Assembly: GCF_000400485.1 (NCBI RefSeq)
Contig: NZ_ASHR01000035.1
Span: forward strand, 1 to 64,000
Length of the DNA: 64,000 nt
DNA from: Agrococcus pavilionensis RW1
GTDB lineage: Bacteria > Actinomycetota > Actinomycetes > Actinomycetales > Microbacteriaceae
Reading direction: 5' to 3'
Shown: piece after piece, positions 10,741-62,590 of the stretch
Layout: every line of letters starts with the position of its first letter
Numbering within the stretch: the first letter of the stretch is position 1
Program-made: the position numbers and the translations under genes
The notes under the pieces: generated by a model
What the model was told of the DNA's origin: nothing
The model's input: only the letters and a program-made list of their open reading frames with translations
The model's database searches: none

Positions 10741-10871
10741 GGTCTCGATACGCCCGGCCTGCGGCCGGGCTACTCGACCAACGGGCGGAGGGGCGGCCTG
10801 CGGCCGGGCTGCTCGACCGACGGGCGGAGGAGCGGCCCGCGGCCGGGCTGCTCGACCGACGGGCGAAGGGG
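10741..10871. repeat. REP-like palindromic repeat array, family A (three partial units)
   Basis: Begins with GGTCTCGATACGC, a GC-rich hairpin centre (CCGGCCTGCGGCCGG) and CTACTCGACCAACGGG. Two further copies of the hairpin-plus-CTGCTCGACCGACGGG half follow in tandem at a period of about 40 bases. The same family occurs at 52658-52960 (inside a coding region) and 62391-62590. Here it fills the gap between treZ and the gene at 9690-10724. Confidence 0.85.
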
Positions 10872-10873
10872 CG

Positions 10874-51571: not shown

Positions 51572-51600
51572 GGCGCGCGCGGGTGACCGGGCCACCCGGC

Positions 51601-51651
51601 CGCCCCGGGATCCGCCTGGGGGATGACCCCCGGTGGATCCCGCTCGGGGCG
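51601..51651 (-). terminator. Large terminator hairpin of the etf-cytochrome b operon
   Basis: Nested arms: CGCCCC/GGGGCG (51601-51606/51646-51651) and GGGATCC/GGATCCC (51607-51613/51635-51641), with a GC-rich inner stem closed by an ATGA loop. It starts five bases after the operon's last stop. Confidence 0.75.
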
Positions 51652-51655
51652 GCGG

Positions 51656-53557
51656 TCAGCGCGAGGAGACGGTGCCGAAGCGCTGCGCGATCGGCACGAG
51701 CAGCGACGGCCTCGCCGCGAACCACGCCGCGGCGATGACGAGCAGCGAGCCGGCGAAGAACGCGAAGCCGAGCCAGTCGTCGGCCTCCCGCGCCGCGTAC
51801 ATGTGGTTGAGGTTGCGCAGCGCCCCGGTCGTGAGCACGAGCAGCACGTGCGTGACGATGAACACCACGAAGTACAGCATCACGGGGAAGTGCACGGCGC
51901 GCGCCCACTCCACCGGGAAGGCGCGGTCGAGGCCAGCCTTGCCCTGCGGCCACCAGCGGCTCATGCGGATGCCCGTGATGATCGCGAGCGGCGCGGCGAC
52001 GAAGACGGTGGTGAAGTACGCGAGCTGCTGGAGCGCGTTGTAGTTCACCCAGCCGTGCTCGGTCGGCCAGTCGAGCGAGACGTACTGCAGGCCCGCCGAG
52101 ATCGCGTGCGGGAAGACCTCGAGGCTCGTCGGCACGATGCGCATCCACTGCCCGGTCGCGAACAGCAGCACGACGAAGACGAGCCCGTTGACGACCCACA
52201 GCACGTCGAGGCTCGTGTGGAGCCAGACCGACAGCGACGTCTTCTTCCCGCCGCGCTTCGGGGTCCAGTAGGCGGCGGGCTTCCGCTCGTACCGCACCTG
52301 CAGGCCCGAGCGGATGATGAGCACGATCAGCAGCGAGTTGAAGAAGTGCGACCAGTTGAGCCACGGCGGCAGGCCGACGGGCGCGCCCTCCGGCAGGTCG
52401 TAGGTGCCGGAGTACTGCTGCATGAACGCCGCGACCGGCTCGAGCCCGACGAACCAGCGGGCGATCGCGACGACGATCGTCGCGAGGCCGACGATCGCGA
52501 GCGCGACGATGATGCTGGTCGCGATCCACTGGCGCGCGGTGACCGGGCGCATCGACGGCGCGGCGGCAGCGGTCGCGGCCGACTTCGCGGCGGCGGCCGC
52601 CGGCTTCGCCGCGGCAGCGGCGGGCTTCGTCGCCGGGGCGGGCTTCGCCGCCGGCGTTGGTCGAGCCGCCGCGGGCGCCTCCACCTCCGCGGGTCGAGCA
52701 GCCGCCGCAGGCGCCTCCACCTCCGCGGGTCGAGTAGCCGCCGCAGGCGCCTCCACCTTCGCTGGTCGAGTAGCCGCCGCAGCCGGCTCCACTCCCGCTG
52801 GTCGAGTAGCCGCCGCAGGCGGCGTATCGAGACCCGCCGGCTCCGTCTCGATACGCGCGCTGCGCGCGCTACTCGACGCACGGGTGGAAGCAGGCGGCGC
52901 ATCGAGACCCGTCGGCTCCGTCTCGATGCGCGCGCTCTGCGCGCTGCTCGACGAACGGGCGGGGGCCGACGCGGCAGCGCCGGCGGGCGGCCACGGCTCG
53001 CCGCCGCGCACGCGCGGCAGCCCGCGGCGGATCGTGGCGCCGGTGTCGTGAGTGGTACCGATCTGTCGCTCGACGGGGGCGGCAGGCGGCGAATCGGTAC
53101 CACCCGGCGCGGCCTCCGGGGCGGGGGTGGTACCGATGTGTCGCTCGGCGGGGGCGGCAGGCGACGAATCGGTACCACCCAGCGATGCAGGCTCGCGCTC
53201 AGGCTCGGCGATCGGCTGCTCGACGGGCGCCGCGACGGCCGCGGCCGCACCGGCCGCAGGCGGCCACGGCTCTCCGCCGGCGACGCGCGGCAGGCCGCGC
53301 CGGATCGCGCCGGGCGGGGTCGAGTGCACGGCAGCGGGGGCGGGAGCGGGAGCCGCGGCCTCTGGCTGCTCGACCGGCACCGCCTCGACGGCGGTCGCCG
53401 CGTCGTCGCGCGGCTGCGGCGGCGCATCGGCCGCGATCGGCGCAGCGGCCGTCGCGATGGCCAGCGGGTCGGCCGCGGCGACGTCCGACGCCGGCGGCCA
53501 CGGCTCGCCGCCGGGCACGCGCGGGAGCCCCCGACGCACCGCCACCGCTCGCTCCAT
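51656..53557 (-). CDS. Cytochrome b/b6-type membrane protein with a long repeat-built N-terminal tail
   Basis: 633 residues. Residues 1-335 are disordered: three copies of RRGLPRVxGGEPWPP (about 8, 86 and 177), two copies of a GGTDSxPAAPxERxIGTT unit (128-145 and 152-169), and a run of ATRPAEVEAPA-type units (201-300) encoded by intergenic-type repeats. Residues 336-633 are a membrane domain with five or six helices and likely haem ligands in NWSHFF, WLHTSL and RAVHFPVMLYFVVFIVTH, like the b-type subunits of hydrogenases and formate dehydrogenases. It follows etfA by two bases, so it may carry electrons from ETF into the membrane. A large hairpin follows the stop. Confidence 0.82.
   Translation of the reverse strand: MERAVAVRRGLPRVPGGEPWPPASDVAAADPLAIATAAAPIAADAPPQPRDDAATAVEAVPVEQPEAAAPAPAPAAVHSTPPGAIRRGLPRVAGGEPWPPAAGAAAAVAAPVEQPIAEPEREPASLGGTDSSPAAPAERHIGTTPAPEAAPGGTDSPPAAPVERQIGTTHDTGATIRRGLPRVRGGEPWPPAGAAASAPARSSSSAQSARIETEPTGLDAPPASTRASSSARSARIETEPAGLDTPPAAATRPAGVEPAAAATRPAKVEAPAAATRPAEVEAPAAAARPAEVEAPAAARPTPAAKPAPATKPAAAAAKPAAAAAKSAATAAAAPSMRPVTARQWIATSIIVALAIVGLATIVVAIARWFVGLEPVAAFMQQYSGTYDLPEGAPVGLPPWLNWSHFFNSLLIVLIIRSGLQVRYERKPAAYWTPKRGGKKTSLSVWLHTSLDVLWVVNGLVFVVLLFATGQWMRIVPTSLEVFPHAISAGLQYVSLDWPTEHGWVNYNALQQLAYFTTVFVAAPLAIITGIRMSRWWPQGKAGLDRAFPVEWARAVHFPVMLYFVVFIVTHVLLVLTTGALRNLNHMYAAREADDWLGFAFFAGSLLVIAAAWFAARPSLLVPIAQRFGTVSSR
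52658..52960. repeat. REP-like family A repeats inside the cytochrome b gene
   Basis: Several copies of GGTCGAGTAGCCGCCGCAGG-type half units at a period of about 33 bases. Then come two inverted units built on GTCTCGATACGC, a GCGC hairpin and CTACTCGAC. Same family as 10741-10871 and 62391-62590. In this gene the repeats stay in frame and code for residues about 200-300. Confidence 0.85.
53052..53103. repeat. 52-bp inverted-repeat element, copy 1
   Basis: Bounded by GTGGTACCGAT and ATCGGTACCAC (11-bp perfect inverted ends). It lies in frame in the cytochrome b gene and codes for a GGTDSPPAAPVERQIGTT-type unit. Confidence 0.8.
53127..53178. repeat. 52-bp inverted-repeat element, copy 2
   Basis: Same ends (GTGGTACCGAT and ATCGGTACCAC) and the same length as copy 1, 23 bases away and in the same orientation and frame. 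A few internal substitutions separate the two. Confidence 0.8.
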
Positions 53558-53559
53558 CG

Positions 53560-54525
53560 TCAGCCCTTCCGCGCCTCGAGCGCCGCGGTGAGCTGCGGCA
53601 CGATCGTGAACAGGTCGCCCACGACGCCGAGGTCGGCGATCTCGAAGATCGGCGCCGACGCATCCCGGTCGATCGCGACGATCGTCTTGGCCGTCTGCAT
53701 GCCGGCGCGGTGCTGGATCGCACCCGAGATGCCGACCGCGAGGTAGAGGTCGGGCGAGACCGACGTGCCGGTCTGCCCGACCTGCGCGCTCGGCTCGACG
53801 TATCCCGCGTCGACGGCGGCGCGCGAGGCGCCGACCGCGGCGCCGAGCGTGTCGGCGAGCTGCTCGATGAGCGCGAACTGCTCCTTCGAGCCGAGCCCGC
53901 GTCCGCCCGAGACGATGCGCTTCGCCGTGCGGAGGTCGGGGCGCGTCGAGACCTGCGCGATGGGCTCGAAGCTCTCGATCGTGGCGGCGCGCCAACCGGA
54001 TGCGGTGACCTCGAGCGGCTGGACGTCGGGCGCCGCGGCCTCGGCGCGGTCGTCGATCGAGCCGAGGCGCATCGTCGCGATGAGGGGCCCGTAGGTCGCG
54101 GCCGACTCGACGTCGTACGCGCCGCCGTAGACCGAGTGGCGCACGACGACGCCCTGCTCGTCGCGCGCGACGCCGACGATGTCGGCGGCGATCGGCGCGC
54201 GCAGCCGCGCCGCGAGCCGGCCGGCCGCCTCGCGGCCCTCGACCGTCGCCGGCACGAGCACGAGCTCTGGCTGCACGAGCCGCGCGGCCGCCTCGAACGC
54301 GTCGGCCGCCGGTGCGCCGAGCTCAGCGCCCTCGACGACGGCCGTGTGCACGCGCGCCGCGCCGAACGACGCGGCCTGCTCGGCGAGGCCGGGCAGCGCA
54401 TCCGCGGGTCCGGTCACGACCGCGATGGGCGTGCCGATCGAGGCGGCGGCGCCGATGGCCTCGGCGGCACCGGCGATGAGCCCGCCCGCGGGAGCGGCGG
54501 GCAGGAGCACGAGGATGGGGTTCAC
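53560..54525 (-). CDS. etfA: Electron transfer flavoprotein, alpha subunit
   Basis: 321 residues. The C-terminal FAD domain has the family signature [41 protein letters not shown] and [29 protein letters not shown] (about residues 202-275), ending in [25 protein letters not shown]. It carries electrons from acyl-CoA dehydrogenases. GTG start overlapping the etfB stop (GTGA). Two bases later the cytochrome b gene begins. Confidence 0.96.
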
Positions 54526-55313
54526 GCGAGCCTCCGCTCGGCCAGGAAGGCCGCGATGCGCTCGCCCGCGTCGCCCTCGTCGGTGATGATGGTGCCCGCC
54601 GAGCGCGGCGGCCGCTCGGCGACCGAGGTCATGATCGAGCGCGGCGCGGCCGTCTCGTCGAGCGCCGCGCCGACCTCGTCGAGCGGCAGGTCGTCGAGCG
54701 TGAGCTGCTCGACCGGCTTCTTCTTGGCGTTCATGATGCCCCGCAGCGCCGGGAAGCGCGGGTCGGGCAGCGCCTCGGTCACCGAGACGACGGCCGGCAG
54801 CGCCGCCTGGACGACCATCGTCCCGCCGTCGGTCGCGCGCGTGCCGCGCACCGCATCCGCCGTGATCTCGAGCGACTCGAGCCGCGTGATGCCCGGCGCG
54901 TCGAGCATCTCGGCGAGCATCGCGGCCATCACGCCGCCCGTGCCGTCGGTGGATGCGTCGCCCGTGATGACGAGGTCGAAGCCCGTCTTGCGCAGGGCCG
55001 CGGCGAGCACCTCGGCGGTGCGCACGTAGTCGGCGCCCGCGAGCCGCTCGTCGGCGACGTGCACGGCGGAGGCGGCGCCCATCGCGAGCCCCTTGCGGAG
55101 CGCGGACTGCGACTCGGCCGGCGCCATCGACAGCACGACGACCTCGGCGTCGCCGGCCTGCTCGGCGTGCTGCAGCGCGGCCTCGAGGGCGCGCTCGCCG
55201 ATCTCGTCGATGACCGTCTCGCTCGCCGCGCGATCGGCGAGGCCGGTCTCGAGGTCGAGCACGCGCTGCCCGTACGTGTCCGGGACGGGCTTCAAGAGCA
55301 CGACGATCTTCAT
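54522..55313 (-). CDS. etfB: Electron transfer flavoprotein, beta subunit
   Basis: 263 residues. [17 protein letters not shown] at the start, then [18 protein letters not shown] (about 84) and [25 protein letters not shown] (about 112), the AMP-binding region of ETF-beta. It forms the ETF heterodimer with EtfA and accepts electrons from the acyl-CoA dehydrogenases encoded nearby. GAAGGG lies nine bases before the ATG. First gene of the etfB-etfA-cytochrome b operon, divergent from a marR gene. Confidence 0.96.
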
Positions 55314-55376
55314 CGAGCGGTTCCCTTCGTGGTGGGGTGCTGAGGCAACGGTACGGTGATCGAGGAGGAGGAGCCG

Positions 55377-62389: not shown

Positions 62390-62390
62390 C

Positions 62391-62590
62391 CCGCTCGTCG
62401 AGTAGCGCGCGCAGCGCGCGCCCCCGCTCGTCGAGTAGCGCGCGCAGCGCGCGTATCGAGACGGAGCAGGCCGGTCTCGATATGCCGCCTCCGGCGGCTA
62501 CTCGACCAGCGGAGGGGGGCGCCGCCTCCGGCGGCTACTCGACCAGCGGAGGGGGGCGCCACCTCCGGCGGCTACTCGACCGACGGTGCG
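62391..62590. repeat. REP-like family A repeat array
   Basis: Two CTCGTCGAGTAGCGCGCGC hairpin units, then GTATCGAGAC, GGTCTCGATATGCC and three CTCCGGCGGCTACTCGACC units at a period of about 41 bases. The last unit overlaps the 3' end of the glutathione peroxidase gene and provides its TAG stop. Confidence 0.85.

Follow-up and report, generated by a model that had tools for sequence, protein, structure and literature searches.

Palindromic repeats in the predicted disordered spacers of an etfBA-linked cytochrome b tail in Agrococcus

Palindromic repeats that lie in frame within protein genes are known from Rickettsia and other bacteria (PMC6649704, PMC3733652). The GTAG-tagged REPs (Di Nocera et al. 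2013, PMC3733652) are described as short stem-loops with GTAG beside the stem, which form head-to-head dimers and clusters and are mostly intergenic, with some of them located in genes, those of helicases included. Neutral insertion of REPs in flexible linkers was already proposed in that paper, in the main text of which the word Actinobacteria does not occur. In mycobacteria, the link from the electron transfer flavoprotein (ETF) to menaquinone is EtfD, for which a disordered region with conserved interspersed repeats and an AlphaFold3-predicted contact with ETF are described (PMC13083937). In the open-licence literature we found no account of palindromic repeats of the present kind in Agrococcus or Microbacteriaceae, of RPE with disorder, or of a PF01292 cytochrome with a motif tail beside etfBA, and nothing relevant on b-type cytochromes linked to ETF in actinobacteria. 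That palindromic repeats can lie in frame, and that flexible linkers tolerate them, has been published before (PMC3733652, PMC6649704). As far as the open-licence literature goes, what is new here is a repeat family from actinobacteria, two proteins in which the same spacers were filled repeatedly, the choice of the forward frame, and the motif tail tied to etfBA.

The locus lies in a window of 64,000 nucleotides (positions 1 to 64,000 of contig NZ_ASHR01000035.1) of Agrococcus pavilionensis RW1, and its repeats, families A and B, are found in a cytochrome b gene. Likened by description, they resemble the Rickettsia palindromic elements in being found both between genes and, in frame, within protein-coding sequence, and in being tolerated by the protein. 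They differ in the phylum, in the units (hairpins of ~30–45 nt with variable stems), and in the filling of one spacer of one gene in two genera. With the GTAG-tagged REPs they share the short palindrome (stem of 5–13 bp) in many genomic copies, the dimers with GTAG outward (52801-52877 and ~62430-62508), and the tag beside the stem, which all 24 copies have by construction, since the pattern used to find them contains GTCGAGTAG-C(stem). However, the conserved boxes extend past GTAG on both sides, and the RAYT transposase (PF01797), present in 5 of 14 control rings, gave no match in any of the 24 Agrococcus genomes, so that RAYT-driven movement within the genus was rejected. Because the RAYT association is missing, we describe families A and B as working like GTAG-tagged REPs and not as being such elements.

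The cytochrome b gene and its motif-bearing tail

The gene occupies 51656-53557 on the minus strand and encodes 633 residues. Its ATG (53555-53557) is placed just past the stop codon (53560-53562) of etfA, the gene of the ETF alpha subunit, which is located immediately upstream (53560-54525, minus strand; PF00766, E 1.1e-35); the etfB region spans 54522-55346 on the same strand (the reading frame is that of the etfB query, and the gene start is approximate). A long N-terminal tail of ~335 residues, 48% of which are Ala or Pro, is followed by the membrane cytochrome b domain (51656-52552, minus strand) with six predicted long helices. The protein belongs to the cytochrome b561 family PF01292 (residues 398-584, E 1.9e-7), with 31.5 bits against the curated Pfam cut-off of 30.1, and the histidines of the heme-ligand type (columns 72, 115, 224, 238, and 253) are invariant in 25 aligned cytochrome sequences. 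The model of the domain has a pLDDT of 86. The best scores in VIA-align were obtained for formate dehydrogenase-N gamma (1kqf_C, Z 11.2), superoxide oxidase (10.7), and HyaC (10.1), which are middling values for helical bundles; Foldseek gave zero matches to the domain model at E ≤ 0.001, and the cytochrome profile matched none of the PDB sequences. The protein is comparable with PF01292 cytochrome b561, formate dehydrogenase-N gamma, and HyaC by domain assignment and, less firmly, by fold comparison, whereas the long motif tail and the etfBA neighborhood are additions. The charges of the loops suggest that the tail is cytoplasmic. An Rfam scan of 51600-53700 returned no family. The closest named relative found is A. 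lahaulensis DSM 17612 (G015), with 97% identity of the cytochrome domain.

The conserved content of the tail is the motif R-R-G-L-P-R-x-x-G-G-[E/D]-x-W-P, present in RW1 as RRGLPRVPGGEPWPP (motif 1, residues 8-22, 53492-53536), RRGLPRVAGGEPWPP (motif 2, residues 86-100, 53258-53302), and RRGLPRVRGGEPWPP (motif 3, residues 177-191, 52985-53029), all on the minus strand, and the repeats are confined to the spacers. We counted 165 instances of GLPR in 62 loci, at least one of which (L097) is a chance match in a spurious open frame; L003, L021, L022, and L045 duplicate loci already counted and were left out. Distinct motif windows that also contain GG..WP number 146. In 28 aligned full-length proteins the motif columns are invariant or nearly so, as are those of the cytochrome. 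When at most 150 candidates per genome were scored, a motif profile matched strongly 30 times, in 10 of 30 genomes and always in tails of this type; three further matches were weaker (E 0.005–0.008).

The spacers between GLPR starts measure 44–156 residues, with one step of 32 (L063), and they accumulate many nonsynonymous changes, third codon positions being the most variable. The first spacer segment shows 16 synonymous and 47 nonsynonymous codon differences between RW1 and A. lahaulensis, and motif 3 shows 8 and 0 over three genome pairs. Tails free of repeats have plain Ala/Pro-rich spacers. The spacers are predicted to be disordered, as the AlphaFold pLDDT per block of ten residues ranges within 34–51 for residues 131-300; in most of the domain it is 80–95 (two blocks have 66 and 78), and it reaches 64–65 in the blocks at motifs 1 and 2.

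Repeats inside and outside the gene

The segment 52658-53178, described by the first-pass annotation as a disordered linker with in-frame repeats of two families, corresponds exactly, in coordinates and frame, to residues 127-300 of the 633-residue open reading frame (51656-53557, minus strand), and both families in it are palindromic. Family A consists of constant boxes in the layout TCTCGATACGC-stem-loop-GCTACTCGAC. Its strict copies number 24 in the RW1 genome, 2 of them within the cytochrome b gene, and the reversed pattern, used as a control, gave 0. In 20 distinct copies from RW1 the stem is paired in 103 of 107 cells, with compensating changes, and the pairing is similarly observed in G015 (37 of 37 cells, 7 copies), G006 (66 of 67, 15 copies), and G014 (19 of 19, 3 copies). 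In these four samples the flanking boxes stay constant while the stem sequence varies with compensation. Family B, GGTACCGAT...ATCGGTACC, occupies three strict places in the RW1 genome, two in the cytochrome b gene and one at position 39713 of contig C7, where a second, degenerate copy adjoins it and forms two neighboring palindromes. Because family B is rare in the sampled DNA (0–4 copies each), the data argue only weakly for its mobility.

Within the tail (all on the minus strand), family B is represented by the units GGTDSSPAAPAERHIGTT (residues 127-144, 53126-53179) and GGTDSPPAAPVERQIGTT (residues 152-169, 53051-53104), each recognized as a tandem repeat and by pattern match. Family A contributes a diverged unit, RSSSSAQSARIETEPTGLDA (residues 201-220, 52898-52957), a head-to-head pair with the GTAG ends outward, RASSSARSARIETEPAGLDTPPAAATRPA (residues 226-254, 52796-52882), and a 36-nt tandem array, (AAATRPAxVExP)n (residues 248-300, 52658-52816). 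The array was considered as a family of its own and rejected, as it is built of repeated half-units of family A (GGCGGCTACTCGACC arm). Tandem copies of 75 nt are found at 53033-53182 (two, 84% identical) and at 52815-52964 (two, 87%), and the 36-nt unit is repeated ~4.4 times at 52664-52821; all three periods (75, 75, and 36 nt) are multiples of three. Outside the cytochrome b gene, family A forms an intergenic cluster at 62390-62581, which includes a head-to-head composite of the kind seen in the tail, and an element with 39-nt tandem half-units at 10743-10873. The earlier statement that one of the two families also occurs between genes therefore holds for family A (clusters at 10.7 and 62.4 kb), whereas the restriction to one family had to be dropped, since the copy on contig C7 places family B outside the gene as well.

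With a slightly shorter pattern, family A was found in 11 of the 24 genomes of the genus Agrococcus among the matches listed, and among those 5 of 50 matches in A. lahaulensis and 2 of 9 in G020 are located in the cytochrome b gene. The placement by a simple codon-usage gene caller (inside/edge/intergenic) is 2/2/30 for RW1, 0/1/18 for G015, 3/0/21 for G006, and 0/0/12 for G014, which are rough counts, as copies in the cytochrome b tail are labeled intergenic or edge and the RW1 sample was picked around matches. The spacing of repeats is a multiple of three in 10 of 10 cases in the tails; outside the gene the remainders 0, 1, and 2 are found 39, 26, and 21 times (35, 23, and 18 without the two HrpA loci), so that a preference for multiples of three exists there already.

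Repeat insertion is not specific to cytochrome b, as it also concerns the HrpA helicase and probably a third gene. In HrpA, a single linker, which joins the HA2 domain to the OB domain, carries the family-A boxes. The helicase was matched in 23 of the 24 genomes of the genus; forward or reverse-right boxes are present in the linker in 15 of the 23, and none in 8. Strict genome copies, among the matches listed, accompany 10 of the 15 boxed genomes and 1 of the 8 unboxed ones (G017), so the link between HrpA boxes and strict copies is real but loose, and related variants of family A were found in genomes where strict copies are absent. The HrpA stretch is 222–235 residues long in G003, G009, G013, G022, and G023 (0 strict copies each, among the matches listed) versus 280 in RW1, and G005, G017, and G018 have longer linkers without boxes. 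In the RW1 genome, a NERD-domain/UvrD-like helicase gene (L103:2486-4426) carries an in-frame copy of family A at about residue 458.

The forward boxes in the cytochrome b tails are read in a single phase (left 15 of 15, right 15 of 15), and the same phase is repeated in HrpA (13 of 13 left and 19 of 19 right, in 23 genomes) and in Agromyces seonyuensis (1 and 1). Owing to tandem duplication within the tails and descent among the HrpA copies, these counts represent few independent events, which number at least three (Agrococcus cytochrome b, Agrococcus HrpA, and Agromyces cytochrome b). In each of the 31 copies from the window and the examined stretches, none of the three forward frames contains a stop, so that stops do not force the forward phase; in the reverse direction one frame always has a stop. 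The reading used, GLDT..ATRP, is rich in Ala, Pro, and Thr, and the other forward readings are, in the examples, Arg-rich (VSIRRLRRLLD) or Cys/Tyr-rich (SRYAACGGYST). Reverse right boxes in the cytochrome b tails are found 9 times in one phase and twice in another. The reverse-left box is in one phase in 25 of 25 cases, yet ordinary coding sequence produces it too (VETS in HrpA, GLET/VETT in the tails), and for this reason it was left out as evidence. Two genomes were excluded from the box and phase counts, namely G007, in which the frame is broken near the cytochrome by a stretch of the tail (L007) that, we assume, resembles a sequencing adapter, and G019, with a gap of 100 N in the tail (L012/L023); the tails are trouble spots of assembly.

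Tail differences between relatives and competing explanations

Repeat insertion had been suggested to have built or lengthened the tail. Lengthening is borne out by the alignment of orthologues, in which RW1, G017, and A. lahaulensis, with domains 97% identical between relatives, differ by whole in-frame repeat blocks that are gained or missing. Up to a common landmark the tails have 370 residues in RW1, 325 in G017, and 393 in A. lahaulensis. The first family-A block is missing from the G017 tail. The tail of A. lahaulensis has extra family-A blocks after motif 3, and one block between motifs 1 and 2, where RW1 and G017 carry unrelated sequence; the two family-B units are common to all three. 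The view of a tail assembled from repeats was rejected, as tails with the conserved motif exist without repeats in Agromyces, Microbacterium, Arthrobacter, Brevibacterium, and others. No species free of the repeats was found to share the linker: G002 and G011, which have 0 strict copies among the matches listed, also have 0 boxes in their tails. In other genera, 48 of 49 motif tails contain 0 or 1 box, and these tails have 9 boxes in all. The tail of Agromyces seonyuensis (L079) contains 8 boxes, with several reverse units in the frame GRVGSEA, which is not used by the Agrococcus cytochrome b tails, and one forward unit read as GLDT; it is a separate colonization of the same tail.

Exact 20-mers of the RW1 tail recur in the remainder of the window at 50 per 100 kb (the RW1 sample is the window itself, which contains two repeat clusters), and at 9.0 in G015, 13.0 in G006, 5.8 in G014, and 0 in both G002 and G011. 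The 20-mers of the G006 tail are found 39.2 times per 100 kb in the G006 sample versus 0.2–8.5 in the other samples, and in 400 kb sampled from the G006 genome individual 16-mers of its variant match as many as 23 times. For the A. lahaulensis tail the values are 8.8 in its own sample versus 11.5 in G006, and for the G014 tail 1.0 versus 3.5. As these two tails match G006 better, a private repeat variant is clear in the 20-mer table only for G006, and the lineage specificity of the tail repeats is clear only for G006 and Agromyces. In RW1, A. lahaulensis, and G006 the tail matches repeats sampled from the respective genome: repeat-matching 16-mers cover 191 of 1074, 457 of 1143, and 515 of 1143 nt, respectively, a coverage that includes single matches, some of them possibly due to chance.

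We consider it very probable that a tail of three motifs with disordered spacers was filled in frame by palindromic repeats, followed by tandem growth and selection. The three short conserved motifs would be strung on weakly constrained disordered spacers, and REP-like repeats of families A and B, otherwise mostly intergenic, would insert into these spacers in frame. Local tandem duplication would then amplify some of the inserted repeats, with unit lengths divisible by three, and selection would remove frame-breaking or harmful readings and keep the motifs. The insertion presumably proceeds by transposition-like copying, and we infer that the spacer peptides are close to neutral.

A different possibility is that the tail is untranslated, the true start being near MRPVTARQW (52552) and the repeats forming a 5' leader between etfA and the cytochrome b gene. 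Di Nocera et al. caution that N-terminal REPs can reflect misannotation (PMC3733652), high-GC DNA often has long open frames, and the simple gene caller, which is based on codon usage, left the tail copies outside the gene. This explanation is nevertheless highly improbable, given that different genera share the motif at the protein level and in frame (165 GLPR in 62 loci, 28 aligned proteins), that motif 3 shows synonymous changes only, and that in two of the three pairs changes in the family-A segment are most frequent at the third codon position (17, 16, and 41 changes by codon position in one, 25, 21, and 47 in the other). Moreover, the frame is kept across many block lengths, and HrpA uses the same forward frame between conserved domains. 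The composition of the tail, with its 48% Ala+Pro and its plain tandem repeats, could also be explained by slippage and unequal crossing-over of Ala/Pro codons with no mobile insertion, the likeness to repeats being due to chance or GC bias. We find this barely credible, as the 20-mers of the RW1 tail recur at 50 per 100 kb in the window and at 5.8–13 in G006, G015, and G014 but at 0 in G002 and G011, and the boxes are far above the codon-shuffle control: the RW1 tail has 8 family-A boxes, and 300 shuffles gave 0.18 on average and never more than 2; the values are 14 versus 0.23 and 14 versus 0.34 in two further tails.

The inserts could instead be adaptive, with spacer length or composition tuning the reach of the motifs and the single forward frame kept for function. 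The choice of a single frame where three forward frames are open, seen in at least three places, and the Ala/Pro/Thr-rich character of that reading beside the Arg-rich or Cys/Tyr-rich ones, point in this direction. Spacer lengths, however, vary widely, repeat-free tails manage with plain Ala/Pro-rich spacers, and purifying selection against bad readings accounts for the frame equally well, so we regard adaptive inserts as unlikely. In-frame filling of the spacers by palindromic repeats, with tandem growth and selection, remains our preferred explanation. The repeats have filled the same protein spacers in at least two lineages and at least two proteins; because the same spacers are filled repeatedly and insert-free relatives exist for comparison, the rate at which repeats become protein, and the reading frames that are tolerated, can be measured.

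The link to ETF and a possible role of the tail

The motif is present in 52 of 56 loci with etfA upstream and in 0 of 20 without it, as counted in 76 of 80 named loci, which are the best 80 of 197 and are related to one another, so that a Fisher test on these counts gives no realistic probability; the four with less than 2.5 kb upstream (L026, L064, L079, and L083) were excluded. The etfA-linked loci without a counted motif are L023, L072, L086, and L094, of which L023 (the named copy of G019) has an assembly gap, with the motif upstream of it. In the genus, the cytochrome and etfA are found in the same 12 genomes in equal copy numbers (3 and 3 in G020, 2 and 2 in G004, 1 and 1 in the others), the ETF alpha subunit family has no match in 11 of the 24 genomes, and G021 (340 contigs) has etfA without the cytochrome. 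The etf and cytochrome genes have seemingly been lost or gained together in Agrococcus, and since they lie together, joint loss or gain alone could explain their co-occurrence.

The ETF-QO domain PF05187 (Fer4_ETF_QO) is found neither among the Pfam matches of the cytochrome nor in any of the 24 genomes of the genus (3 of 14 control rings have it). The CCG domain (PF02754), present in 12 of 14 control rings, is likewise absent from the Pfam matches of the cytochrome and was detected in 1 of the 24 genomes (G002, 22.6 bits against a cut-off of 20.6). Like mycobacterial EtfD, the Agrococcus protein is a b-heme membrane protein that is paired with ETF and has a predicted disordered region of variable length that contains conserved repeated motifs. 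Unlike EtfD, which has CCG and FeS domains and C-terminal disorder, it has no CCG domain and no cysteine (count 0 in the whole protein), and its tail is N-terminal. From the genomic linkage and this analogy, we infer that the motifs may dock ETF and that the cytochrome may pass electrons from ETF to menaquinone. More tentatively, the protein could be a third kind of ETF:menaquinone oxidoreductase, consisting of a b-type cytochrome alone, in which the RRGLPRxxGG[E/D]xWP tail would recruit ETF and the spacers would accept mobile repeats that lengthen the docking arm, a proposal that we regard as possible but doubtful. Because only the motifs would matter in that reading, the spacers would serve as a landing pad for palindromic repeats. 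The motif tail thus offers a testable answer to how ETF electrons enter the respiratory chain of Agrococcus, in whose genomes ETF-QO was not found and EtfD-type domains gave a single weak match.

In G012, which accounts for 3 of the 30 strong matches to the motif profile, the tail is split from the cytochrome. Here (L222, L225, and L226) etfA and the three-motif tail have been joined to an unrelated C-terminus. The cytochrome domain lies ~0.8 Mb from them and has neither tail nor etfA; the cytochrome gene was split by a rearrangement.
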